This document shows positions 29,029 through 43,511 of a DNA stretch of 64,000 bases, piece after piece (position 1 is the stretch's first letter; the number at the start of each line of letters is the position of its first letter). A program made the translations under genes and the position numbers. Source of the stretch: Akkermansia muciniphila (GTDB lineage Bacteria > Verrucomicrobiota > Kiritimatiellia > RFP12 > JAAYNR01); contig CAMBQN010000009.1 in NCBI GenBank assembly GCA_945870025.1, positions 1 to 64,000 of the forward strand, read 5' to 3'. Below the pieces are notes generated by a model that worked only from the letters and a program-made list of their open reading frames with translations, had not been told where the DNA came from and ran no database searches.

Positions 29029-31377
29029 ATGAACAGCGAAAAGCCCACCGCGCGTCTATCGAGCAGTATCGCCACCTTGCGGTCAGACGTCATGGCCCGC
29101 AAGGGATCGTTTGTGTCTACCGTCAATCCGCTATTGTGCGATGTGGCCCTGTGGCGGTCGTTTACGCCGGGGCAGTCGCGCGTCCAGCGGCGGGCAGCGT
29201 TTCTGCGCGAACTGGTTGTTCTGGCGCCTGTCGAGATCGGCCCGGTGTGGACACTGGCCGGCGAGCACCTGCGGCCGCTGCACGCTGGGGTGGGAGCGTG
29301 CGGCAATCCCGAGTTAGCCGCGCGCTTTGCCGAGTTCGGCATCGACGCGGCCGAGGCGGAGAATGTCCGGCGATGCGCCGCGGCGTGGAACGGTGATACC
29401 GGCACGACCATGCCGCGGGGGACGCTCCATACGGATGTTGGTGTTGCCGCACCGGGCAGCCATAACGGCAAGGGCGGTTGGGGCGGAGCCACAGGCATGG
29501 ACGTCTTCTGGTCCATTGGTTGGGTTGAGAACCACAGCGTTCGCGACTTTGCCAAAGTCATACGCATCGGTTTCGCTGGAATCCTGGCGGAGATTGACGC
29601 GGCCCTGGCGGGCGGCGACCTGACGGACCCCGATTTCCCGCGGAAAGAGAACTTCTGGCGTGGCGCTCGGAGCGTCTGCGAGGCCGGCATGCTCCTTGGC
29701 AAGCGCTATGCGGAACGGGCGGCGGAGCGGGCGGCCGCTTCGGCCGATTCGGATGACAAGGCACGGCTGGAGCGGATGGCCGAAGCCTGCGCGCAGGTGC
29801 CGGCCCGCGGCGCCCGCAACTTCCACGAGGCGGTTCAGGCGCTGTGGTTCGCGCACATCCTCACCTGCGGCGAGGATGGCATCAACGCCAACTCGATCGG
29901 TCGCCTCGACCAAATCCTCTTCCCCTACGGCCAGGCCGGTCTCGCGGACGGCTCGCTCACGCAGGACGCGGCGCTCGAGCTGATGGAGGAGTTGGCTTGC
30001 AAGCTCTACCTTGATTACGACGTGCAAGCCATCACGCTGGGCGGCGTGGACCGGCACGGCAACTGCGGCGTCAACGACTTGAGCTACCTCATCCTTGAGG
30101 CCACCCGGAACGTGGGGTTCATCCGCGACGTCTCCATTCGCGTCAGCAAGAACTCGCCGCCCCGCTTCCTCCGTCTCGCCGCCGAACTGATCGTCGAGGG
30201 CGGCGGCATCCCCTTCCTCTTCAATGACGACTGCTTCATCAAGGCCTTGACCGACCGCGGCATTGCCGTCGAGGACGCGCGGGACTACGCCCCCATCGGC
30301 TGCATCGAGTTGACCATTCCCGGCAAGGCCAACCCGCACGCCGTGTCGGGCTGGTTCAACGCCGCCAAGTGTCTCGAGCTGGCCTTGTTCGACGGCGCCG
30401 ATCCGCGGACCGGCGTCCAACTGGGGCCGAAGACCGGCACGCTCGGCGATCACCCGACCTTCGAGAGCCTCCTGGCCGCGTATGACACACAGGTCGAATT
30501 CTTCGCCCGGCGCATGGCCTATCACTGCAACCGCGGCGAGCTGCAACAGCGGGAGCGTGGTCCGCTCCCTTGCTGGTCAATCATGACCGACGATTGCATC
30601 GCCCGCGGGCGTGACATCACCGACGGCGGGGCGATCTACAACTACCACTCCATCTGCCTGCTCGGCACGGCCAACACCGCGGACTCCCTGATGGCGGTCA
30701 AGAAGTGGGTCTACGACGAGAAGCAGCTCGGTGCCGCCGAGCTGCTCGACGCCTTGCGAACCGATTTCGCCGGCAAGGAGGAGCTGCGGCAGAGATTGCT
30801 GCGGGACGCGCCGAAATACGGCAACGACACCGAGGAAGTGGACCTGCTCGCGAAACGCGTTGACGACCATTTCATCGATCTGATGGACACCCTGCGCAGC
30901 CCACTTGGCGGGCGTTACTTCGTGCACCTCTTCTCCTTCCTGTGTAATCTGGATTTCGGGAGATGTCTGGGCGCCACACCGGACGGCCGCAAGGCCGGAG
31001 AACCCATTGCCTATTCGCTGTCGGCGCAACAGGGCCGCGACGAGCGCGGCGCCACCGCCATGCTCAAGTCGCTCGCGCGCCTGCCGCACAACCGGGCAGC
31101 GGGGGCATCGGCGGCGATCATCGAGCTCGATCCGGCCGTGGTCGAGGGGGAGCCGGGTGTCGAGCGCTTGACCACGCTCATACGTGCGGCCCTGGCGATG
31201 GACATCGGCCAGCTCCAGTTCAACGTCGTCACTGTCGAAAAGCTCCGCCAGGCACAAAAGGACCCGGAACACTTCGGGGACCTCCCGGTGCGTGTCGCCG
31301 GCTTCTCCCAGAAGTTCAAACTGGTTCCCCCCGATCTGCAGGAACACATCATCGCCCGCACCAAGCACACATCATGA
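29029..31377 (+). CDS. Glycyl-radical enzyme 3
   Basis: This is a 782-aa protein. The catalytic cysteine is Cys425 in PIGCIELTIPG, and the radical loop is RVAGFSQKF (Gly758), close to the family consensus RVxGYxxxF. It ends ELxEHIIARTKHTS-like, typical of the dehydratase group of GREs. A distinctive glycine-rich stretch, APGSHNGKGGWGG, occurs near residue 141. Its stop overlaps the ATG of the activase gene by 4 nt, making it the most likely cognate partner, though the same activase may serve all three. The substrate is unknown. Confidence 0.85.
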   Translation: MNSEKPTARLSSSIATLRSDVMARKGSFVSTVNPLLCDVALWRSFTPGQSRVQRRAAFLRELVVLAPVEIGPVWTLAGEHLRPLHAGVGACGNPELAARFAEFGIDAAEAENVRRCAAAWNGDTGTTMPRGTLHTDVGVAAPGSHNGKGGWGGATGMDVFWSIGWVENHSVRDFAKVIRIGFAGILAEIDAALAGGDLTDPDFPRKENFWRGARSVCEAGMLLGKRYAERAAERAAASADSDDKARLERMAEACAQVPARGARNFHEAVQALWFAHILTCGEDGINANSIGRLDQILFPYGQAGLADGSLTQDAALELMEELACKLYLDYDVQAITLGGVDRHGNCGVNDLSYLILEATRNVGFIRDVSIRVSKNSPPRFLRLAAELIVEGGGIPFLFNDDCFIKALTDRGIAVEDARDYAPIGCIELTIPGKANPHAVSGWFNAAKCLELALFDGADPRTGVQLGPKTGTLGDHPTFESLLAAYDTQVEFFARRMAYHCNRGELQQRERGPLPCWSIMTDDCIARGRDITDGGAIYNYHSICLLGTANTADSLMAVKKWVYDEKQLGAAELLDALRTDFAGKEELRQRLLRDAPKYGNDTEEVDLLAKRVDDHFIDLMDTLRSPLGGRYFVHLFSFLCNLDFGRCLGATPDGRKAGEPIAYSLSAQQGRDERGATAMLKSLARLPHNRAAGASAAIIELDPAVVEGEPGVERLTTLIRAALAMDIGQLQFNVVTVEKLRQAQKDPEHFGDLPVRVAGFSQKFKLVPPDLQEHIIARTKHTS

Positions 31378-32294
31378 GTACGGACATGAATGGCATCGTC
31401 TTCGACATCCAGAAGTTCTCCATCCACGACGGCCCCGGCATACGCACGACCGTCTTCCTCAAGGGGTGTCCCCTGCGTTGCCTCTGGTGCCACAATCCGG
31501 AGTCACAGGAGCGTGCCGCCGAAATCTCCCTCATCCCCTCCAAGTGCATCGGCTGCGGACATTGCTTCCATGCCTGTCCGCAAGGCGGACACGTCATGGG
31601 CGAGGACGGGAACCGCGCCTTCCACCGGGAGCGTTGCCAGCGCTGCGGCGTCTGCGCCGAGAAGTGCTACGCCAAGGCTCTCGAACTCATCGGACGGGAG
31701 ATGACCGTCGAGGAAGTGATCGCGGAGGTCGAGAAGGACAAGCCTTTCTACGAGACCTCGGGCGGCGGCATGACCGTCTCGGGCGGCGAGCCACTCTTTC
31801 AGTTTGAATTCACGCTGGCCCTGCTCCAAGAGGCCAAGCGGCGCGGACTCCACACCTGCATCGAGACCTCCGGCTTCGCACCGTTCGAACGGCTGGAGCA
31901 GATCAGGCCCTTGGTCGATCTCTTCCTCTACGACTACAAGGAGACCGATCCCGCCCGCCATCAGGAGTATACCGGTGCGCCGCGGGAGGTCATCGTCGAC
32001 AACCTGATCCGCCTCGACCAGCTCGGGGCGAAGACCATCCTGCGCTGCCCGATCATCCCCGGCCTGAACGCCCGGGCCGACCATTTCGCAGGGATCGCCG
32101 CCATGGCAAACCGACTTCACAACATCCTCGAGGTCAACCTCATGCCGTACCATCCGCTCGGCCAGTCGAAGAGCGAGCGCATCGGCAAGCCCGCCCCCAT
32201 GGACGACGTCACCTTCCCCGAGGCCGCCACCGTCGCTGCCTGGGAGGCAACCGTCGCCGCCGCCACGCGTGTGCCCGTCAAGAAGGGGAGCTGA
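31374..32294 (+). CDS. Glycyl-radical enzyme activating enzyme (radical SAM)
   Basis: This 306-aa protein installs the glycyl radical on its partner using S-adenosylmethionine. The radical-SAM motif CxxxCxxC is CPLRCLWC (Cys32, Cys36, Cys39), preceded by the family start FDIQKFSIHDGPGIRTTVF. An inserted ferredoxin-like domain carries two [4Fe-4S] motifs (Cys58-Cys68 and Cys88-Cys98), as in activases of non-PFL GREs. SGGEPLFQ is the glycine-rich SAM-binding strand. ATG chosen at 31374 because it overlaps the GRE3 stop (ATGA). It is the only activase in the window. Confidence 0.93.
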   Translation: MSTDMNGIVFDIQKFSIHDGPGIRTTVFLKGCPLRCLWCHNPESQERAAEISLIPSKCIGCGHCFHACPQGGHVMGEDGNRAFHRERCQRCGVCAEKCYAKALELIGREMTVEEVIAEVEKDKPFYETSGGGMTVSGGEPLFQFEFTLALLQEAKRRGLHTCIETSGFAPFERLEQIRPLVDLFLYDYKETDPARHQEYTGAPREVIVDNLIRLDQLGAKTILRCPIIPGLNARADHFAGIAAMANRLHNILEVNLMPYHPLGQSKSERIGKPAPMDDVTFPEAATVAAWEATVAAATRVPVKKGS

Positions 32295-32341: not shown

Positions 32342-34177
32342 CTACCACTGGAAGACACCGAACTTGGAAGGATGGTGGAACTCGCGGCTCTTGTCGTAGA
32401 CCGCGAACCAGCTCTGCAGTTGCCAGTCTTCCTTCTGCCCGCGGAAATTGCGGCAGAAATTCACCGCCCAGCGGGTGCCGTCCTTCGGCGGACCCCCGAG
32501 GCGGTCGAACGGAATCAGAATTTCGCAGGACCATTGGCCCGAATCCTTGTTGACGCTAGTCTTGATCGTCAGCGCCGCGTCCCATGGCTCAGCACGGCTC
32601 CTCGATTCGGCCGTCTTGTAGTAGCCGGTCCAGTAGAGACCCTTGGAATTGACAATCAGTTGGCAGTAATCCTGGCGGTCGAAATTGGTGTCCAGGAAGA
32701 TCTCAACGGAATCGTCTTGGATCAGATGCGAGGCCTCTGCGGCGTCGGCTCTGGCGATGAGCTGGGACACGTCTGGATCCGAGCAAACAAAGGAAATATA
32801 AAGGCACTGCCGCCCCTGCACGTCGGTTTTGCTGACGTAGCAGTAGGTGGGCGGCTTGGCTTCCGGAGGCGGCGACCCGGGCGCATGCATACGAAACGCC
32901 CCGCTCTTCCAACTCTTGGCGGTTTCATCCGTCGTGACCATGCCGTCGATCTTGAGGGTGTCGCTTCCATCCCCGCTCTTCATCTGCGCCAGTTGTTCGG
33001 CGATGTGCGCCACCGGTATAAAGGTTCCCTTGTAGGCTTCGAAATTAACGGGGCTGGGTTTCAGCGCGGCCATGAGGGCCAGGCGCTGCGACCGGTCACC
33101 GGGTAGGCTGCCCCCGCGCACCGGCTCCTGGAGGCCGGTGGTGGCGGTGCCAGATGCCGAGACCTGAAAAGTCGCCCGACTCAGGCTGCTGTCGTCCGCC
33201 TTGATCTGGAATCGCCCCAGGTCTGTGGATTGCCGCACGGCATCCGCCTCGGCCACGGACAAACGCCGCATGGGCGCCCCGCCGCTCAACGCCACCTTCT
33301 CGCGCTGCACCGCCACCACCCTGTTCTGGGCCAGCTCGGGCAGCGCCGCCAGCTTCTCCAGAGGCAGAGACTCCCTCGCAAGCTTGGGAGGAGCCAACGT
33401 GGGCTGAGTCTCGCGTGATAGTACCGGCTCAGCGGTAACCGATTCGACGGGCTTGATCTCGGGCTTGAGCAGGTCCGGCGTGGTCGTGGTCGGCTCGGTC
33501 GGCGTAAAGGTCTGGCGATTGACCGTGTCCAAAGAACGGACAGCGTCCGCCGCTGGCGCACTGGCCTGATCGGCCAGCATCGTCACCTCCACCGGCGGCT
33601 GGGCCGGCTCGAACACCTCTTCCCGGGGAACGAGCAGCACCAGAAGCGCCAGGATGGCTATGAGCGCGCCCATCGACGAGAACGCCTTGCGCAGCCGATC
33701 GCGATGCATGTAGCCGGCGCATGTGTTCAGATAACCGGGAGGAATGACATAATCGCGGATCAGGCCCGCGCAAAGATCCGCGACGTTGACATGGGTGCGC
33801 CGGTCGCGCGCTTCGGGGTCGCTCGGCGCAAACATGAACTGGTGACATCCCGCCGTGATGATGTCGCCGAAAATCACCTTGTCGCGCTGCGTGTGCCGAT
33901 GGTTGAGAAAGACCCGCGCATCGGGATGGGCTTCCATGATCCACACGTTCGTACAGGCTTCGTGGGTGCTGTCGCAGTGATGCTTGTGACGGACCAGCGT
34001 GAACGCGCGGGAAGGCACCAGAGGATCACACATCACCAAGTCGTTGTCGGTCCCGGCGCCTATTCGAATCTCGTCGCTGCCGGTGACCACTTCGCAGGCC
34101 TCCACGCCAGCCACGCGGCCCAGGATGCGTACCCTGTTGGCGTCGTGAACGGAAGGTCTGGAGGCGTTGTCGGCCAT
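32342..34177 (-). CDS. FHA domain - TM - CBM9-like protein (TonB/TolA position)
   Basis: This is a 611-aa protein. Residues about 12-115 look like a forkhead-associated domain (IRIGAGTDNDLVMCDPLVPS, VFLNHRHTQRDKVIFGD), which binds phosphothreonine in known cases. One transmembrane segment lies at about 170-187 (GALIAILALLVLLVP). A Pro/Ala/Glu-rich linker spans about 190-420. The C-terminus (about 430-611) resembles a CBM9-type domain (YISFVCSDPDVSQL, DDSVEIFLDTNF, WSCEILIPFDRLGG, RWAVNFCRNF). The predicted topology is FHA in the cytoplasm and the sugar-binding-like domain in the periplasm. It directly follows ExbD (1-nt junction), where a TonB- or TolA-like protein would be expected. The combination is unusual; its function is inferred only from context. 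Confidence 0.75.
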   Translation of the reverse strand: MADNASRPSVHDANRVRILGRVAGVEACEVVTGSDEIRIGAGTDNDLVMCDPLVPSRAFTLVRHKHHCDSTHEACTNVWIMEAHPDARVFLNHRHTQRDKVIFGDIITAGCHQFMFAPSDPEARDRRTHVNVADLCAGLIRDYVIPPGYLNTCAGYMHRDRLRKAFSSMGALIAILALLVLLVPREEVFEPAQPPVEVTMLADQASAPAADAVRSLDTVNRQTFTPTEPTTTTPDLLKPEIKPVESVTAEPVLSRETQPTLAPPKLARESLPLEKLAALPELAQNRVVAVQREKVALSGGAPMRRLSVAEADAVRQSTDLGRFQIKADDSSLSRATFQVSASGTATTGLQEPVRGGSLPGDRSQRLALMAALKPSPVNFEAYKGTFIPVAHIAEQLAQMKSGDGSDTLKIDGMVTTDETAKSWKSGAFRMHAPGSPPPEAKPPTYCYVSKTDVQGRQCLYISFVCSDPDVSQLIARADAAEASHLIQDDSVEIFLDTNFDRQDYCQLIVNSKGLYWTGYYKTAESRSRAEPWDAALTIKTSVNKDSGQWSCEILIPFDRLGGPPKDGTRWAVNFCRNFRGQKEDWQLQSWFAVYDKSREFHHPSKFGVFQW

Positions 34178-34615
34178 CTAGGGAGTTCCTGTTCTGGATT
34201 TTGCGAGCGTCAGCAGGGAGAACTTCGGGAAGCCGGCATCACGAACCGCATCCATGACGGCCACGACATCCTGATAAGGAACCGCCTTGTCAATCTGGAT
34301 GTCGACCGGTTGTTTCGCCGCCGGCCCGGACATTTGCTTCAGGGCTTCGCCGAGCTTGTCAAGTGACGTCATTACCTGGGAATTCAGGGTGATCTCGGGT
34401 TGCGCGTCTTTCATCCGGTACGTGATCACCAATCGTTCTTCGTTGGCCGACTTGACGCCGCTGGTCGAATCCGGCAACTGCAGCTCGATCTGCGTCGGTT
34501 TGGTAATGCTGGACGACAGAACGAAAAACACGAGCAGTTGGAAGATGACATCCATCATCGGCGTCATGTTGATGGAGTCGTTCTCCGGTATTTCGTGCCG
34601 CTTGAGCTTAGCCAT
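34178..34615 (-). CDS. ExbD/TolR-family protein
   Basis: This 145-aa protein has one N-terminal transmembrane helix (residues 19-38) carrying the conserved proton-path aspartate, Asp22 in NMTPMMDVIFQLLVFF. A periplasmic domain follows, ending VDIQIDKAVPYQDVVAVMDA, the usual ExbD/TolR fold. It overlaps the ExbB gene by 8 nt and abuts the FHA protein gene. ExbD works with an ExbB pentamer to convert the proton gradient into force on an energy-transducing partner. Confidence 0.92.
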   Translation of the reverse strand: MAKLKRHEIPENDSINMTPMMDVIFQLLVFFVLSSSITKPTQIELQLPDSTSGVKSANEERLVITYRMKDAQPEITLNSQVMTSLDKLGEALKQMSGPAAKQPVDIQIDKAVPYQDVVAVMDAVRDAGFPKFSLLTLAKSRTGTP

Positions 34616-35252
34616 GGTTGCTCACCGCCCTCCCACGCCGGCCCAGCCATTCCTTGATTTCCGCTAGGTAGATATCGAGCAGATGCAGTATCTGGTTGGT
34701 TTCCTTGCGAATATACTCCAGAGCAATCAGGACGGGAATTGCAATGAGGAGTCCCGCCACGGTGGTGATGAGCGCCTGGTAGATACCGCTGGCCAGATTC
34801 CGAGGATCGGTCGCGGCTGTACGTTCGATCGCGATGAAGGCCACCACGAGTCCCCAGACGGTGCCCAAGATGCCCAGCAGGGGCGCGATCTGGGACATGT
34901 TGACCAACCACCCGCGCGACTTCTCGATGGAAACCATCTCGGACAGGATCACCTTTTCCGTGGCCGCCTCAATATCGCTCTCGCCATCCTTGATCCTCTG
35001 AAGCCCCTCCCCGATCACGCGCCCGATCATTCCCTTGGTACGCGCGGCCAGAATGATCGCTTGATCCAGCGAGTTGTCCTTGAGCGCCGAGCGCAACTCG
35101 AAATGGAACTTATCTCCGTTGATCTTGTTCCGGCGGAGGTAGATCAGACGCTCGATGAAGAGGGCGATGGCAATCAGCGCCACCACCCCGAGTGGAATCA
35201 TGAAAATACCGCCCTTGACGCACATATCGATGGTGTTTGCTATCCAGCTCAT
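34608..35252 (-). CDS. ExbB/TolQ/MotA-family proton channel
   Basis: This 214-aa protein has three transmembrane segments: about 15-34 (IFMIPLGVVALIAIALFIER), 118-142 (LLGILGTVWGLVVAFIA) and 161-180 (ALITTVAGLLIAIPVLIALEY). The G-T-V-x-G and T-T-x-A-G-L motifs are those of the MotA/TolQ/ExbB family. It lies 3 nt after the TPR gene and overlaps exbD, so TPR-ExbB-ExbD-FHA is one operon. It forms the inner-membrane stator channel. Confidence 0.93.
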   Translation of the reverse strand: MSWIANTIDMCVKGGIFMIPLGVVALIAIALFIERLIYLRRNKINGDKFHFELRSALKDNSLDQAIILAARTKGMIGRVIGEGLQRIKDGESDIEAATEKVILSEMVSIEKSRGWLVNMSQIAPLLGILGTVWGLVVAFIAIERTAATDPRNLASGIYQALITTVAGLLIAIPVLIALEYIRKETNQILHLLDIYLAEIKEWLGRRGRAVSNHG

Positions 35253-35255
35253 GCT

Positions 35256-37907
35256 CTATTCTCCTTGGGGTGCTTTTACTTTCTGGGCCGCCAGTTCCCG
35301 CCACTTGGCGGAACCCGGCGAGGTCCCAGCAGACTTGATTACCTCGTTCCATTTGCTCACCGCTGTCGTCTTGTCGCCCAGCGCGGCATAGCATTCCGCC
35401 GCGCGGCAGCCCGCGGCATCGGGCCATTCGTTGTAGGGATAGGCGGCGAGCACGGTCTCGTAAGACGCCAGCGCATCGGCGTAGCTGCCGGCCAGCCGGT
35501 CGGCTTCACCCCGGAAGAAATGAATCATGGCGGGGGCGAGCGTGGAACCGAAGGTCTTGGGCGGCAGGGCCGCCTCGTTGGCCGCCAGGTCCGCAGCCAG
35601 TTTGTCAGCCCATTTCTTGAGGTCGGTCTTCTTGTCGTTGGAGGCCAGCCACTGCAGAAGGAGGGACCCCGACGCATAGTAGCGCGGACCGTTCGGAGCG
35701 TAGTCTTTCATCAACGCTTCGAGCCGCGTGCGCACGCTGTCCGAGGCGCTGGCCGCAGCGGTTGTCCTGGCCAGCACAGCGACGGCGGCCTCGAAGGCGC
35801 CGCCGGGTACGTTCGTGCCCAGTTGGGACAACCAGTAGGAGAGACCCTGGTCCCCCGAACCCGCCTGGAGCCGGGCCTTGGCCAGGCTGGCGTCGAGCGC
35901 GGCAGCGTAGGCCTCCGGCAGGGCCTTTCTGTCCTTGTCCGCCACGGCATACCATTTCACGGTCTCCGTCCAGTTCGTCGCGCGTTCGTAGCTGACGGCA
36001 GCCTCGTAGGCGTAAGCCGGCACATCCTTGAAAGACTCGTGCAACGCCCCGTACTGGGCGGCGGCTCCCGGAAAATCGCCGGCATTGAAAAGCGCACGGG
36101 CCCAGGTTTCGCGGCTGTCGCGCGCCAGCTTGGCCTCGCCCCCCAGGAGCGGGCAGGCGGCTTCGAACTGGATGCGGGATCCGGCGAAATCGCCGTTGGC
36201 GAAGAGCGCTTTCGCCAGTTGCTCGCGCAGCTCGCCCTCCTTCTCAACCTTGCCGCCGGCCAGGATACGCTTCCAGATCTCGGCCGCGTTCTTGTAATCG
36301 CCCTTGGCCGCGTAAATCTGCCCCAGCAGACGAAGCCCCTTGTCAAGAAGACCGGGATTCGGCTTCGCCTGCTCCAACGCCTGTAACGTTTTGATGGCCT
36401 CGTCGTTTTCCTTCTGTTTGACCGCGACCACGGCGCTGTTATACAGCGCTTCGTGATAGGCTTCGGCGCCGAGCGTCTTCCTCGCGCTGGCTCCGGCCAG
36501 GAGATCCTTGAAGAGCGCGCGGGCCTTCGCGTAGTCCTCTTTCTGGAGGGCGGCGTTGGCAATCTCCAGCCGCGCCCGCGGCGCCTCGGCGCTGCCAGGC
36601 TGACGCACCAGGAATTCCTCGAGCAGCTTCAGCCCCTCATCCAGGCGTTTGGCCTTCTTCAGGGCTGCAAAATAAATTTGGGCCGCCGCGCCTTCGCGGG
36701 GCGTGCCTTGAAGAAGCGGATAATCGTCCTTCATCGACGGCAGCAACGCAGCCTCATCGGACGCCTGGGCCAGGCCGAAAACCTTGAGATAAAGCACTTC
36801 GGGAAGCTTGTCCTTCGGAAGATAGTCCCGCGTTTCGGCGATGACTTTTATCAGGCGGCGCGCGTCGCCGGAGTCGCTGGCCAGGCGAATCTTCAAAAGT
36901 GCGGCCTGCGCGAGAAGGTCCTGCTTCTCTCGGTCCGGCAGATTGCCGGCCTTCTCCATCACCTGCTGAAGAACCTTCTCGGCATCATTGGTGCGACCGC
37001 CGGCGAGCAGGCATTCGCTCAGAGCCAAGAGTGCCGCCGGCGGCGCAGGCGGATTCTTCATGTCCCGGACCGCCGCCTCAAGGGGGGCCGTGGCGTCCTT
37101 CAGCCGGTTCAACCTGATGAAGGACTGGGCAAGCGTAAAGCATGTGCGCGGATAGAGGTCGCTGCCGGCTGGCACCTTGATCGCCTCCTTCTCGACTTCG
37201 GCTGGCTTGTTCAGGGCCAGGAACGCCTCGGCGCGGACCATGGCCGCCATGTCTTCCTTGACTCCCGGAACGCCACCGACGGACAGGTCGAGCAGAGCCT
37301 GGTATTGTTCGGCGCGGTAGTAGAGATCGAAGAGCTTGACGGCCATTGCCGCCCGGTCGGCGCCCAGTGCCAGTGCCGCCTGGTAGGCCTTCAGCGCAGG
37401 CTTGATGTTGTTCCCGGCATAGAGCGCTTCGGCATACATCACGGCCGTGTTGCGCTTGTCGGCGGCTTCCAAGCTGTTCTTGTCGATCTTCTCATAGCGC
37501 TGGATGACCGCATCGAACTGCGCGGCCGCGTAGTCCATGTAAAGGACCGTCAGGCCCGCCTTGCGACATTCGGCGGCATGCGGGTACTTCTCAATCAGCG
37601 TGGCGTAAGCCTTGCGTGCATCGTCGGTCTTGCCGCCCTTCTCATAAGCCAGTCCCCGGGCATACTGGTACCGGGCGCGATGGGCTTCGGTAAGGTCCGG
37701 CAGGGCTTCCCGCTCGGCAATCTTCTTCAGCGCCGTTTCCCACTGTCCGGCGTTGTAGAGGGTGACAACCACATTGTACTGGGCCTCTTCCACATCCGCC
37801 GCGCGCGCCATCAAGCATGAACAAACGAAGATCACCGTCATCACACGGACTCCGACGACCCTTCGCAGCTTGCCCGGAATTTCTCTTTCATAAATCCGCA
37901 TACGCAT
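35256..37907 (-). CDS. Exported TPR-repeat protein
   Basis: This 883-aa protein has an N-terminal signal sequence (hydrophobic core VMTVIFVCSCLMARA). A start at 37841, preceded by GGAG, is an alternative to 37907. The rest is almost entirely helical tetratricopeptide-like repeats (ARYQYARGLAYEKGGKTDDA, AYAEALYAGN-type units). The last 120 residues (AYPYNEWPDAAGCRAAECYA) resemble the BamD/CpoB TPR style. It is the first gene of the ExbB-ExbD-FHA operon. In Tol-Pal systems a periplasmic TPR protein (CpoB) is also encoded with the motor. This one is far larger and may scaffold partners of the energised complex. Confidence 0.8.
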   Translation of the reverse strand: MRMRIYEREIPGKLRRVVGVRVMTVIFVCSCLMARAADVEEAQYNVVVTLYNAGQWETALKKIAEREALPDLTEAHRARYQYARGLAYEKGGKTDDARKAYATLIEKYPHAAECRKAGLTVLYMDYAAAQFDAVIQRYEKIDKNSLEAADKRNTAVMYAEALYAGNNIKPALKAYQAALALGADRAAMAVKLFDLYYRAEQYQALLDLSVGGVPGVKEDMAAMVRAEAFLALNKPAEVEKEAIKVPAGSDLYPRTCFTLAQSFIRLNRLKDATAPLEAAVRDMKNPPAPPAALLALSECLLAGGRTNDAEKVLQQVMEKAGNLPDREKQDLLAQAALLKIRLASDSGDARRLIKVIAETRDYLPKDKLPEVLYLKVFGLAQASDEAALLPSMKDDYPLLQGTPREGAAAQIYFAALKKAKRLDEGLKLLEEFLVRQPGSAEAPRARLEIANAALQKEDYAKARALFKDLLAGASARKTLGAEAYHEALYNSAVVAVKQKENDEAIKTLQALEQAKPNPGLLDKGLRLLGQIYAAKGDYKNAAEIWKRILAGGKVEKEGELREQLAKALFANGDFAGSRIQFEAACPLLGGEAKLARDSRETWARALFNAGDFPGAAAQYGALHESFKDVPAYAYEAAVSYERATNWTETVKWYAVADKDRKALPEAYAAALDASLAKARLQAGSGDQGLSYWLSQLGTNVPGGAFEAAVAVLARTTAAASASDSVRTRLEALMKDYAPNGPRYYASGSLLLQWLASNDKKTDLKKWADKLAADLAANEAALPPKTFGSTLAPAMIHFFRGEADRLAGSYADALASYETVLAAYPYNEWPDAAGCRAAECYAALGDKTTAVSKWNEVIKSAGTSPGSAKWRELAAQKVKAPQGE

Positions 37908-38287
37908 AGTGGCTTGCTATTAGCAGGAAGCGCGCCAACAGCACCGACCGTTCACCTTTTCATATAACAGTTTGAAACCCCGCCGATTCCGGGATACCTT
38001 TCCCTTCAGAGCCGGGACCTACGCATACAGGAATAGGCACTATCAGCGACCGGCAGCGTCTGGCGGTACTCGAAACAGCGAAGCATGGAGCCTTGTCGAT
38101 TACATGGGACAGACCCCCAGCAATTCCCTGACTACGACACCGATCCGGACCTCGCTTACGCGAACGAATAATCGTCTGCGATGGGGCAGGTGTATCTTTT
38201 TTCAGCCACAAAGACGCTGTTTGGCGGTGACTTACGTTCAGCCATTGCTACTTGACGTTTCATTCCGCTTCAGACAGACTCCTCTCC
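37908..38287. other. Intergenic spacer between divergent operons
   Basis: This is a 380-bp gap between the TPR gene (minus) and the GH28 gene (plus). It should hold both promoters, but none stands out. A frame ending FPDYDTDPDLAYANE-stop at about 38171 has no start and no family that I recognise. It could be another gene-end fossil, but this is weak. Confidence 0.4.
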
Positions 38288-39859
38288 ATGAATTCGCTAC
38301 TCCAGACCGTTTCCGGTTCGAACACCTTCAGTATTCGTGATTTTGGCGCCACGGGTGACGGCAAGGCCAAGGATACGGAGGCCGTTCAGCAAGCCATCGA
38401 TGCCTGCACCGCCGCTGGCGGGGGCCGCGTCTATTGCCCGCCCGGCACCTATCTGCTGGGCACCATGACCCTCAAGGACAACGTCGAGTTGTACTTGGAA
38501 GCCGGCTGCACGCTGCTGGCGTCGCCCGAGTTGACGGACTACGAGCCCAACTACCTGATCTACGCCAAGGATGCCCGCCAGATCGCGATTCGCGGGCGCG
38601 GGACGATTGACGGCAATGGGCGGAGTTTCTTGAGCCCCCCGTCGTTGCCGTCCCCGCGGGCCTGGATGCCGCGCGGACCGATCCCCAAACACCGGCCACG
38701 GGCGGTGGTGCACTTCATCGATTGCGTTCATGTCTGGATCACCGATGTTCTGTTTGTGGACGCCATGTTCTTCACCGTCTGGCCCCTGGGCTGCGACCAC
38801 GTGCGCATCCAGGGGATCACGATCCGCAGCAACCGGTTGTCGTGGAACGCCGACGGCGTGGACCCGGATTGCTGCCGCGATGTGCGCATCAGCGACTGCT
38901 ACATTGAAGCGGGTGACGATGCCATCGCCGTCAAGAGCGACAGCCATCGGCTGGGCCGCCAGAAGGCCTGCGAACAGATTGTCGTCACCAACTGTACGCT
39001 GATCAGCCCCATGTGCGGTATTCGCATCGGCTACGAGGGCGACAGCCCGATCCGCGATTGCACCTTCAGCAACCTCAACATCATCAACTCGCGGCGCGGG
39101 ATTTGCGTTCAGGTGGCGACGCACAGGCCATTTCCGGGTATGGCCTCCGCGTTTGAGGGCATCCTGATCGAGCACGGTCCCGCCATCGAGAATATCTCTT
39201 TCTCCAATATCAACTTGGACACGATGAAGGCTTTCTTCTTCTGGGTGGACCACGAGGCGTCGGCACCGGGGTGCATCCGCAATGTGAGCTTCTCCAACAT
39301 TTCGGGCTCAACTGAGCGCAGTTCCTACATCTGCGGCTCCCCGACCATCCCGTTGGAGGAGCTGCGCTTCAGCAATGTGCAGCTCACTGTCAACGGCGAA
39401 ACCGACGACCAGTATGCCCGCGTGGTACCGGATCCGTATGGTCACGATCAAGGACGCTGGGGCAATTGGGGAACCAAAGGCATACCGTGCGCTTTCTACT
39501 TTCGTTACGTCCGCGATCTCGATCTGCACGATGTCCGCGTGAAGTGGGGCCGTCTGGCAGGTCCGTGGATGGAAGCGATCCGCATGGAAAACGTCACGCG
39601 CTGCGATCTGAGCGGGTTGGTGGCGCGCCAGGCGCAGAGTTGTCCCGATGCCGCGGCTGTCCGCATGAACCACGTCCGCGATGTCTTGGTGCGCGGGTGC
39701 CGCGCCGAGGCGGGCACCGGCACCTTCCTTAGCGTGGAAGGCGCCGACAGCGCCGGCATCACGCTGGTCGGAAACGACTTCCAGCGCGCCGCGCGCGCCT
39801 GCCATTTTCACCCGGAAGTACCGCAGACAACTGTTGCGTTTGGGGACAGGATCGGGTAA
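38288..39859 (+). CDS. Glycoside hydrolase family 28 (polygalacturonase-like)
   Basis: This protein is about 523 aa from the ATG at 38288; an ATG at 38252 is possible. It is a right-handed beta-helix enzyme with the GH28 opening FSIRDFGATGDGKAKDTEAV and GGGRVYCPPGTYLLG. The catalytic aspartate motifs are NADGVDPD (near residue 190) and GDDAIAVKSD (near 210). An IRIGYEG segment and later SNINLDTMKAFF repeats complete the helix. GH28 enzymes cut pectic polysaccharides or related uronides. No signal peptide is seen, which suggests action on oligosaccharides inside the cell, or an unrecognised leader. It precedes a GH94 phosphorylase, forming a carbohydrate-use gene pair. Confidence 0.9.
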   Translation: MNSLLQTVSGSNTFSIRDFGATGDGKAKDTEAVQQAIDACTAAGGGRVYCPPGTYLLGTMTLKDNVELYLEAGCTLLASPELTDYEPNYLIYAKDARQIAIRGRGTIDGNGRSFLSPPSLPSPRAWMPRGPIPKHRPRAVVHFIDCVHVWITDVLFVDAMFFTVWPLGCDHVRIQGITIRSNRLSWNADGVDPDCCRDVRISDCYIEAGDDAIAVKSDSHRLGRQKACEQIVVTNCTLISPMCGIRIGYEGDSPIRDCTFSNLNIINSRRGICVQVATHRPFPGMASAFEGILIEHGPAIENISFSNINLDTMKAFFFWVDHEASAPGCIRNVSFSNISGSTERSSYICGSPTIPLEELRFSNVQLTVNGETDDQYARVVPDPYGHDQGRWGNWGTKGIPCAFYFRYVRDLDLHDVRVKWGRLAGPWMEAIRMENVTRCDLSGLVARQAQSCPDAAAVRMNHVRDVLVRGCRAEAGTGTFLSVEGADSAGITLVGNDFQRAARACHFHPEVPQTTVAFGDRIG

Positions 39860-39918
39860 TCTATTCGCCGCTTGAGCCCAGGCGGGTTCAGCTCCACACA
39901 GTTACGGGAGATAAACGA

Positions 39919-42381
39919 GTGAAATACGGTTATTTTGATACAGAGAAGAAGGAATATGTGATCCAGCGTCCGGACACGCCATTGCCCTGGATCAACTACT
40001 TGGGCACCCAGAATTTCTACGGTATGATCTCCAACTCCGGCGGCGGCTATTGCTTCATGACGGATGCCCGGAAAAGGCGTCTGACCCGCTATCGCTACAA
40101 CAACATCCCCATGGATTCCGGAGGACGTTACCTCTATGTCCGCGACGCGCAGACCGGCAAGTCCTGGGCGCCGGGCTGGATGCCGGTGAAGGCGGAGCTG
40201 GATGCTTACGAATGCCGTCATGGTCTGGGTTACACGACCATCACCGGAGAGAAGGACGGCGTCCGCGTCTCGACGCGCTATTTCGTCCCCTTCAACGAGA
40301 ACTGCGAAATCTGGGAGACCGACGTCACCAATACGGGGAAGCAAGAGAAGCGCATCTCCCTGTTCAGCTTCGTGGAGTTCTGCCTCTGGGAGGCGCTCAA
40401 TGACGCCACCAACCTGCAGCGGACGCTGAACCTGGGTGAGGTGGAGGTGGTCGGCAACACGATCTACCATGTTTCCGAATACCGCGAGCGGCGCAATCAT
40501 TTCGCCTATTTTGCGACGAGCGCGGACATCGCCGGCTTTGACACCGACTCCCAGAGTTTTCTCGGCGCGTACAACGGTTTCCACGAACCCCAGGTCGTGA
40601 CCGAGGGCAAGAGCCGCAACTCGATGGCCTGCGGGTGGAACCCCTGCGGTTCGCACGGCATCGAGATCACGCTGAAACCCGGCGAGACCCGGAAGATTAA
40701 CTTCATGCTGGGTTACGCGGAAAACCCCGAGGACGAGAAATTCAGCTCCCCCGGCGTGATCAACAAGAAGTATGTCGCGCCCACGATTGCCAAATACCTC
40801 GACCGCCGGAACTCGGAGGCGGCGTTCAAGGCTCTGGTTGCGGAATGGCAGGACCTGACCGGACGGTTCCAGGTGGAGACGCCGTATGCCAATCTGGACA
40901 TGATGGTCAACACGTGGAATCAGTATCAGTGCGTGACCACCTACAACATGGCGCGCTCCACGTCCTACTACGAGACGGGGATCGGACGCGGCATCGGCTA
41001 CCGCGATGCCTGTCAGGATTTGTACGGCGCGGTCCACATCATGCCGCCGGCGCGGTCGCGCGAGCGGATCCTCGAGCTGGCGGCGATCCAATGGCGCAAC
41101 GGCGCCACGTACCACCAGTACCAGCAGCTCGACAAGAAGGGCAACGCCACCATCGGCGTCGGCTTCAATGATGACCCGCTGTGGCTCATCCTGGGAACGG
41201 CCACCTACATCAAGGAGACCGGCGACTGGTCCATCCTGGAGGAGCAGGCCGCCTTTGACAACAATCCCAAGGACACCGCGACGCTCTACGAGCACTTGGT
41301 GATTTCGGTCAACCACATCATGGAGCATCGTGGTCCCCACAAGCTGCCGCTCGTGGGACGCGCGGATTGGAACGACTGCCTGAACCTGATCATGACCAGC
41401 ATCAAGCCCGGCGACACGTTCCAGGGCGATGCCACGCATGCGAGCCTCACGGACGCGATCGGCAGCGTGCCGGAAAGCCTGATGATCGCGGGGCAGTTCG
41501 TCTGGGCGGTGAGCGAGTTCATGCGCATGGCCCAGCATAAGAAAGACGCGAAGCACGCCACGATGGCCGCCGCCGCAGTCAAGGAAATGCAGGATGCAAT
41601 CATCGCCCACGGCTGGGACGGCGAGTGGTTTGTTCGCGCCTTTGACCGGTTCGGCAAGAAGATTGGCTCCAAGGAAAATGCGGAAGGGCAGATCTTTGCC
41701 GAGTCGCACGGGTGGATCGGCATGGCCTCGGTCGGTAAGGAAAACGGCATGCTGGCCAAGGCGTTGGACGCGGTCAAGCAGCGGCTCTTCTCGCGGCATG
41801 GCATCGTGCTGCAGCAGCCGGCGTACACGAAGTACAACTTCTATCTGGGCGAGATGACGTCCTATCCCCCGGGCGTCAAGGAAAACGGCGGCATCTTCTG
41901 TCAGCCCACCGGGTGGCTGACGATCGCCGAGTGTAACATCGGACGCGGCGACACGGCCATGGAGTACTACGCATCCATCTGCCCGGCCGAGCGGGAGGCC
42001 ATCAGCGACGTTCACCGGTGCGAACCCTATGTCTACTCGCAGATGATCGCGGGACCCGATTCCGCGCGCTTCGGCGAGGCCAAGAACTCGTGGCTGACGG
42101 GCACCGCCGCTTCGTCGTTCCTGGCCGTCTCGCAGTACATTCTGGGCATCAAGCCCGATTATGACGGCCTGCTGCTGGACCCGTGCGTCCCGAAGCAATG
42201 GGATGGCTTCCGCGTGCAGCGCAAGTTCCGCGGCGCGAGCTATGATATTCGAGTCACCAATCCCTCGCATGTGAGCAAGGGCGTGAAGCGGGTCACGGTG
42301 GACGGCCAGGAAATTGCCGGCAGTCTGCTGCCCGATTTCAAGGACGGCAAAACGCATCGGGTGGATGTGGTAATGGGATAG
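39919..42381 (+). CDS. GH94 glycoside phosphorylase
   Basis: This 820-aa protein starts at a GTG 8 nt after GGGAG. It has the GH94 (former GT36) layout: N-terminal beta-sandwich (NYLGTQNFYGMISNSGGGY), an (alpha/alpha)6 catalytic domain with conserved DWND (Asp483-Asp486 in GRADWNDCLN), and a C-terminal beta-domain ending VTVDGQEIAGSLLP. Enzymes of this family split cellobiose, cellodextrin, chitobiose or similar beta-glycosides with inorganic phosphate, giving a sugar 1-phosphate. The sequence looks cellobiose-phosphorylase-like, but the exact substrate needs subfamily comparison. It is cytoplasmic, with no signal peptide. Confidence 0.92.
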   Translation: MKYGYFDTEKKEYVIQRPDTPLPWINYLGTQNFYGMISNSGGGYCFMTDARKRRLTRYRYNNIPMDSGGRYLYVRDAQTGKSWAPGWMPVKAELDAYECRHGLGYTTITGEKDGVRVSTRYFVPFNENCEIWETDVTNTGKQEKRISLFSFVEFCLWEALNDATNLQRTLNLGEVEVVGNTIYHVSEYRERRNHFAYFATSADIAGFDTDSQSFLGAYNGFHEPQVVTEGKSRNSMACGWNPCGSHGIEITLKPGETRKINFMLGYAENPEDEKFSSPGVINKKYVAPTIAKYLDRRNSEAAFKALVAEWQDLTGRFQVETPYANLDMMVNTWNQYQCVTTYNMARSTSYYETGIGRGIGYRDACQDLYGAVHIMPPARSRERILELAAIQWRNGATYHQYQQLDKKGNATIGVGFNDDPLWLILGTATYIKETGDWSILEEQAAFDNNPKDTATLYEHLVISVNHIMEHRGPHKLPLVGRADWNDCLNLIMTSIKPGDTFQGDATHASLTDAIGSVPESLMIAGQFVWAVSEFMRMAQHKKDAKHATMAAAAVKEMQDAIIAHGWDGEWFVRAFDRFGKKIGSKENAEGQIFAESHGWIGMASVGKENGMLAKALDAVKQRLFSRHGIVLQQPAYTKYNFYLGEMTSYPPGVKENGGIFCQPTGWLTIAECNIGRGDTAMEYYASICPAEREAISDVHRCEPYVYSQMIAGPDSARFGEAKNSWLTGTAASSFLAVSQYILGIKPDYDGLLLDPCVPKQWDGFRVQRKFRGASYDIRVTNPSHVSKGVKRVTVDGQEIAGSLLPDFKDGKTHRVDVVMG

Positions 42382-42424
42382 GGACGTCCGCGCAATAGAG
42401 CTGGTGCGCTTGGGATTGGGGCCT

Positions 42425-42446
42425 GCCCGCAGGCAGCGCTGCGGGC
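42425..42446. terminator. GC-rich hairpin after the GH94 gene
   Basis: GCCCGCAG (42425-42432) pairs perfectly with CTGCGGGC (42439-42446) around a 6-nt loop and is followed by GGTTT. It lies between the GH94 and epimerase genes and may end or attenuate the first transcript. The T-run is short. Confidence 0.35.
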
Positions 42447-42467
42447 GGTTTCCGGGGGAGATGAATC

Positions 42468-43511
42468 ATGACCGAACGGGTTCTGATCACGGGCGGAAGC
42501 GGCTTTCTGGGCATCAATCTAGTCCGGCATCTCCTGAGCAAGGGCATCACGGACATTCGCGTGCTGGATGTGGCGCCCTTTGATTATCCGGAGAGTGGCC
42601 GCGTCACCTTCATGCCAGGCGACATCCGCGACCGGGCCGCGGTCGCGCGCGCGGTGGCCGGAGCCACGTGGGTCGTGCATACGGCTGCCGCGCTGCCGCT
42701 GTATTCCGAGGCGGACATCCTCTCCACCGACATTGACGGCACGCGCAATCTGCTGGAGGCGTCTCGTGCGGCCGGGGTGCAGCGATTCGTTCACATCTCC
42801 AGCACCGCAGTCTACGGCATCCCCGACCATCACCCGCTCCTAGAGACCGATCCAATGCAGGGGGTCGGCCCCTACGGCCGGGCCAAGATTGCCGCCGAGG
42901 AGGCGTGTTTGGAGTATCGGCGGCAGGGGATGTGCGTGCCGATCCTGCGGCCCAAGTCATTCATCGGTCCCGAGCGGCTCGGGGTCTTCGCCCTGTTCTA
43001 CGACTGGGCGCGCGACGGCCGCAATTTTCCCATGATCGGCAGCGGCAATAACCGCTATCAGTTGCTCGATGTGCAGGACCTGTGCGAGGCGATCGGACTC
43101 TGCCTGACGCGGGACACGGCGATCGTGAACGACACCTTCAACATCGGTGCCAAAGACTTCACCACGATGAAGCAGGATTACCAGGCGGTTTTGGACCGCG
43201 CCGGTTTCGGCAAGCGGATACTCGGTTTTCCTGCGCGCCCGATGATCTGGACGCTGCGTGTGCTGGAAGCGATGCACCTCTCGCCGCTTTACAAGTGGGT
43301 GTACGAAACGGCGTGTGAGGATTCGTTTGTGAGCATCGAGAAGGCCGAGCGGGTGCTGGGTTACGCGCCGATCTATTCCAATCGCGACGCGCTGGTGCGC
43401 AATTACGAATGGTATCTCAAAAATTATCAGACCTTCAAAAAGGCTGCGGGTGTCTCGCACCGGGTGCCGTGGAAACAGGGGATACTCGGCGTCGTCAAAC
43501 GGTTTTTCTAG
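42468..43511 (+). CDS. NAD-dependent epimerase/dehydratase (extended SDR)
   Basis: This is a 347-aa extended short-chain dehydrogenase/reductase. The Rossmann motif GGSGFLG lies at residues 8-14. The catalytic pair is Tyr136 and Lys140 in YGRAKIA, with HISSTAVYG before it. A GGGGGAGATGAATC leader precedes the ATG. The C-terminal part (FVSIEKAERVLGYAPIYSNR) is as in sugar-nucleotide epimerases and 3-beta-HSD-like enzymes. It probably acts on a nucleotide sugar or other hydroxylated substrate with NAD(P). The neighbourhood gives no firm substrate. Confidence 0.88.
   Translation: MTERVLITGGSGFLGINLVRHLLSKGITDIRVLDVAPFDYPESGRVTFMPGDIRDRAAVARAVAGATWVVHTAAALPLYSEADILSTDIDGTRNLLEASRAAGVQRFVHISSTAVYGIPDHHPLLETDPMQGVGPYGRAKIAAEEACLEYRRQGMCVPILRPKSFIGPERLGVFALFYDWARDGRNFPMIGSGNNRYQLLDVQDLCEAIGLCLTRDTAIVNDTFNIGAKDFTTMKQDYQAVLDRAGFGKRILGFPARPMIWTLRVLEAMHLSPLYKWVYETACEDSFVSIEKAERVLGYAPIYSNRDALVRNYEWYLKNYQTFKKAAGVSHRVPWKQGILGVVKRFF

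Follow-up and report, generated by a model that had tools for sequence, protein, structure and literature searches.

We describe a four-gene operon that is real, conserved and coherent, and that is a variant of the ExbBD-type force transducers with a CBM9-like periplasmic head. It lies on the minus strand of a 64,000-nucleotide (nt) stretch, hereafter the window, of an assembly labelled Akkermansia muciniphila (GCA_945870025.1, contig CAMBQN010000009.1, positions 1 to 64,000), and encodes a tetratricopeptide repeat (TPR) protein, an ExbB, an ExbD and a protein of 611 amino acids (aa) that joins an FHA fold, one transmembrane (TM) helix, a linker and the CBM9-like domain. The operon is probably a dedicated proton-driven machine for force transduction across the envelope, of the ExbBD/TonB, TolQR/TolA and AglRQS/GltG kind. 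This reading is favoured by the gene order in five further genomes of the class and in a locus called L166, the strict co-occurrence of the components, the single ExbB clade, the invariant ExbD residues, a motif resembling the D-box of TonB, both folds, and the precedents of GltG and the vWA-headed transducers.

Organization of the operon

The genes of the operon, in the order TPR, ExbB, ExbD and 611-aa protein, were all found as open reading frames (ORFs) at the following positions:

35256..37907, minus strand: TPR protein, 883 aa, leading the operon; signal-peptide-like N-terminus by eye; Pfam TPR families, best E=9.3e-22
34608..35252, minus strand: ExbB/TolQ-like motor subunit, 214 aa; Pfam MotA_ExbB, E=4e-26
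34178..34615, minus strand: ExbD/TolR-like motor subunit, 145 aa; Pfam ExbD, E=5.8e-30; TM aspartate D22
32342..34177, minus strand: putative FHA-TM-linker-CBM9 transducer, 611 aa; Pfam, AlphaFold2 (AF2), Foldseek and orthologues

A large, apparently exported TPR protein thus stands first, as the initial annotation had it. Read from the DNA, the TPR and ExbB genes are separated by a 3-nt gap, the ExbB and ExbD genes overlap by 8 nt, and the TAG of ExbD is followed immediately by the ATG of the 611-aa protein; the junction of this last pair, reported earlier as 1 nt, therefore measures 0 nt. ExbB and ExbD also match the TolQ/ExbB and TolR/ExbD models of NCBIfam, none of these matches coming near the cut-off. 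Because the gene 3' of the operon is convergent (it ends at 32294) and the 5' neighbour, a GH28 gene at 38252-39859, is divergent, the operon is probably limited to these four genes.

Distribution and phylogeny

The searches covered the 58 nearest relatives, 346 genomes of the class and a species-level genome collection, and a tree of 86 ExbBs was built. Five other class genomes among the 346 carry an ExbB 62-73% identical to that of the window, the next best having 39%, and all five show the four-gene order, with the contig ends of L147 cutting the TPR and transducer genes. An alignment-based search of the species-level collection adds L166, from a metagenome-assembled genome labelled Planctomycetota, with the full order, and L169, whose contig starts within the transducer gene and keeps its C-terminal 410 aa; the full-length 611-aa protein as a single-sequence query found nothing in that collection, so that an alignment query was needed. 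Orthologues of the TPR protein occupy the corresponding position in L145, L146, L147 (partial), L148, L149 and L166, and those of the putative transducer in L145-L149 and L166, besides the C-terminal part in L169.

A profile of the FHA-TM region gives strong matches (E 1e-83 to 1e-91) in the same six class genomes and only E 4e-5 or worse everywhere else; within the class, ExbB subfamily and FHA-TM protein co-occur strictly, in the same 6 of 346 genomes. The carriers are thus few and sharply delimited, all of them PVC-type (Planctomycetes-Verrucomicrobia-Chlamydiae) bacteria. In the tree, the seven FHA-linked ExbBs form one clade with support 100/99 and a long stem. The gene order is not due to chance, as it recurs in five further genomes of the same class and in L166, and the linkage of the FHA gene to exbBD that the initial annotation wished to see in relatives is borne out.

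The 58 nearest relatives, one of them a 95%-complete genome from the same genus, yielded no orthologue. Queries with the 611-aa protein, entire or as its N-terminus alone, brought up other CBM9 proteins and noise there, and the matches of one family (f4, 570-600 aa) were rejected as orthologues, having a signal-peptide-like start and no FHA part. The PHROGs and viral contigs searched yielded nothing. The six class genomes are spread over five families and the genes are missing from near relatives, which makes gene loss or horizontal transfer a likely cause of the patchy distribution. It should be noted that the TPR gene of L149 (L149:6465-9091) reads as two overlapping ORFs, a frameshift or a sequencing error in the draft genome.

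Domain structure of the 611-aa protein

From the N- to the C-terminus the protein is arranged as follows:

33818..34132, minus strand: FHA-fold domain, about aa 16-120 (AF2, Foldseek, alignment with FHA domains)
33629..33685, minus strand: TM helix, aa 165-183, without His (hydropathy; AF2 helix 154-182)
33575..33595, minus strand: D-box-like motif PVEVTML, aa 195-201, a candidate by comparison with PMC10907165
33053..33574, minus strand: Pro/Ala-containing linker, about aa 202-375 (about 9% Pro and 14% Ala; lowest conservation)
32345..32962, minus strand: CBM9-like periplasmic domain, about aa 406-611 (CBM9_1 E=7.6e-7; Foldseek 4jpq, 1i82)

Sequence searches of the PDB with either end of the protein gave weak or chance matches only, hence fold searches were needed for both. 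AF2 models of aa 1-200 and aa 370-611 were built separately on seven-row alignments and compared with the PDB by Foldseek. The aa 1-200 model has a mean predicted local distance difference test (pLDDT) score of 82, and FHA domains make up nearly all of its best 50 PDB matches. In Pfam the N-terminus of the window protein, too diverged for the FHA model, reaches only the FHA-related family Yop-YscD_cpl, below cut-off (E=0.003); the L166 orthologue passes the Pfam FHA cut-off (21.8 vs 20.7 bits).

Concerning the other end, CBM9_1 matches aa 459-608 above the Pfam cut-off, and the aa 370-611 model (pLDDT 68, predicted template modelling score 0.73, that is, moderate confidence) matches 4jpq and the xylanase 10A CBM9-2 structure 1i82 with E 3e-8 to 1e-7 (1i82 E=1.3e-7). 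Neither TonB_C nor vWA was matched by Pfam in the protein, CBM9_1 taking the C-terminal place of the former. Both terminal folds assigned earlier are thus recovered by structure prediction, and the single TM helix and Pro/Ala linker hold by hydropathy, the AF2 helix and composition. Two invariant cysteines, aa 446 and 465, lie in the CBM9-like domain, where a periplasmic disulfide would be possible.

Within the same taxonomic order, domains related in sequence to the C-terminal one include CBM9 domains carried by DUF4838 proteins, which would fit a glycan context without proving it. A glycan would be a plausible cargo of the CBM9-like head.

Coupling to the motor

In the alignment of six orthologues, the proton-carrying TM aspartate of ExbD, D22, is invariant, as are F132, S133, L134 and T136 towards the C-terminus. 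The window ExbD matches solved ExbD and TolR structures, and by profile alignment residues F132-T136 fall on its C-terminal strand in the solved ExbD, a region that binds the D-box (PMC10907165). The D-box of E. coli TonB, which contains Ser-Val-Thr-Met, lies just past the TM helix and binds the ExbD dimer, with alternating hydrophobic residues and flanking prolines (PMC10907165). In the 611-aa protein PVEVTML begins 12 residues past the TM core, the equivalent stretches in homologues being PLDVEMV, PLEVQVV, PMEIVMV, PMEVVMV and PVEVSLA, so that a D-box-like motif is found at the expected place in all six readable homologues. The stretch is also better conserved than the remaining linker (0.68 vs 0.47). 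This candidate motif strengthens the transducer role that the initial annotation suggested for the protein.

Qualitatively, the machine would work as follows. An ExbB5-ExbD2 motor would run on the proton gradient, the periplasmic ExbD dimer would grip the D-box of the 611-aa protein, and the linker would transmit the force to the CBM9-like head; this head may engage a polysaccharide or a glycosylated envelope partner; the exported TPR protein could act as scaffold or partner.

Several observations weigh against this mechanism. The D-box match is short, with a chance of 0.4-3.8% per protein in shuffled sequence, and these values cannot be multiplied because the homologues are related. TonB and TolA use the His of an SHLS motif in the TM helix, and this His is absent in 7/7 homologues. 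The confidence of the CBM9-like model is only moderate, and heme-binding relatives (ethylbenzene dehydrogenase and the cytochrome of cellobiose dehydrogenase) appear in its fold search, ranked after the sugar binders (E 3e-3 and worse); their presence makes a non-sugar ligand conceivable.

Comparison with known systems

The closest precedent is GltG (PglI) of Myxococcus xanthus, known here from its description, which has an FHA domain, a proline-rich part and TonB_C, interacts with AglR in a two-hybrid assay and acts together with TPR proteins (PMC3169522). A paralogue, NfsG, also interacts with this motor, and for both machines, Agl-Glt and Agl-Nfs, an interaction with extracellular polysaccharides is described (PMC3858216). 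The window system shares with GltG the FHA domain, one TM helix, a Pro-rich periplasmic part, a TolQ/ExbB- and TolR/ExbD-like motor and TPR proteins (GltD/GltE in Myxococcus), whereas GltG ends in TonB_C and the 611-aa protein in the CBM9-like domain. The FHA domain in the TonB position, pointed out in the initial annotation, is indeed there and is not new; the CBM9-like head is the new part.

Given this likeness, the operon could be the core of an Agl-Glt-like surface transport or gliding system, whose motor would drive surface polysaccharide or adhesins along by way of the FHA transducer and the TPR protein. We consider this unlikely, since the protein has no TonB_C, the four-gene operon has a single ExbD instead of two, and it lacks outer-membrane Glt-like genes.

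In PVC and other bacteria, transducers with a vWA head are encoded 3' of a TPR gene and tolQR-like genes (PMC12204202). They likewise place a TM-linker-globular protein, with a head other than TonB_C, behind TPR and TolQR-like genes, but have a vWA head, the SHLS motif in the TM helix and a pair of TolR-like genes, with no FHA domain reported. With TonB-ExbBD and TolA-TolQR the system has in common the motor families, the plan of TM helix, linker and periplasmic head, and, as a candidate, the D-box-like motif; TonB and TolA are without FHA, while the 611-aa protein lacks the SHLS His and bears a CBM9-like head. Among the open-access papers searched, none joined CBM9 and ExbD, nor was a CBM9-headed motor variant found described there.

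Neighbouring genes and other transducers

In four relatives (L145:2900-3892, L148:3239-4147, L149:9088-10071 and L166:4964-6100) a FecR-domain protein with one TM helix, preceded by an HxxxCxxC-type stretch, is encoded directly upstream of the TPR gene, with ECF-type sigma genes in the vicinity in L145, L148 and L169. By analogy with FecA-TonB-FecR-FecI, the operon could chiefly be an energised signalling device, in which the ExbBD-driven FHA/CBM9 protein would sense envelope glycan and control the FecR/ECF-sigma pair. Such a device is improbable in our view: the FecR gene is absent both from the window and from genome G342, the window's own genome gives weak FecR and sigma matches only, the operon has no TonB-dependent receptor, and the pair may merely regulate the operon.

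The genome holds eleven ExbB matches in all. A TonB_C protein follows another ExbB (L111:2643-4670), and a vWA-like transducer candidate, with a vWA match below cut-off, lies near a further one, adjoining a RodA/FtsW gene (L102:1769-4471). As the genome thus has TonB and vWA-type transducers, the 611-aa protein is probably an additional, dedicated one. The same genes permit the alternative that the 611-aa protein is co-transcribed yet uncoupled, with ExbBD serving a transducer of TonB or vWA type whose gene lies elsewhere; the missing SHLS His would also suit this alternative. We hold this to be quite unlikely, because the TonB_C and vWA-like proteins adjoin ExbB genes of their own, the ExbB subfamily strictly accompanies the FHA-TM protein, and the D-box-like motif is present.

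Three kinds of ExbBD-linked transducer appear to be held by this genome. In the relative G028 (L092:4314-7573), the gene of a sigma-54 activator bearing an FHA domain at its N-terminus lies no more than 1.5 kb behind an ExbB gene; this activator is not a transducer. Carbohydrate genes adjoin the operon in the window (GH28, GH94 and a sugar-nucleotide epimerase-like gene, 38252-43511), and downstream, at 30963-32294, lies a glycyl-radical activating-enzyme-like ORF, recognised by eye.

The FHA-fold domain

Three unambiguous FHA domains, two from the same genome and the third from a relative, were aligned with the seven homologues; a comparison domain from L003, taken in the wrong frame, was disregarded. 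None of the seven keeps the FHA residues at the GR, S, H and NG positions: GA or GS stands for GR, an invariant Pro55 for Ser and an invariant Ala58 for His, while the NG position has a small residue followed by an invariant Arg88. Phosphothreonine reading is accordingly unlikely on sequence grounds, and the phosphorylation gating of the initial annotation finds no support. A motor gated by phosphothreonine reading, which the fold alone might suggest, is highly improbable with all four binding positions replaced, three of them by other invariant residues.

Cys28, Cys111, His112 and Cys136, in or beside the FHA-fold domain (window 33818-34132), are invariant, and a Cys/His-rich insert (aa 64-78) occurs in 5/7 homologues; together they make a metal or redox site a possibility.

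A comparable case is PrgH, where the phosphothreonine residues are poorly conserved and their mutation is without effect, the authors considering binding of phosphothreonine proteins unlikely, and where deletion of the FHA domain leads to incomplete assemblies (PMC3635987). The 611-aa protein resembles PrgH, YscD and MxiG (PMC3635987) in this poor conservation within an FHA fold, in the single TM helix with a periplasmic part, and in the weak Yop-YscD_cpl match; it differs in being linked to ExbBD, in its CBM9-like periplasmic part and in an operon without secretion genes. By this analogy the FHA-fold domain would most likely be a platform for assembly or docking on the cytoplasmic side, a role proposed for PrgH, rather than a phosphothreonine reader.

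Implications

ExbBD-type motors are known to pull on proteins via TonB, TolA or GltG. With its CBM9-like head, a transducer could link the proton gradient to a glycan and dispense with a head of the TonB type. More tentatively, the operon may represent a new transducer class, in which a carbohydrate-binding module replaces the receptor-binding head of TonB/TolA and ExbBD would pull polysaccharide directly, the FHA fold with its invariant Cys and His serving as a docking, metal or redox platform instead of reading phosphothreonine. The comparison indicates that the periplasmic head of such machines is exchangeable between TonB_C, vWA and CBM9-like domains. Since the D-box-like motif is kept and the SHLS His is missing, this compact four-gene system lends itself to finding out which transducer features the motor requires.
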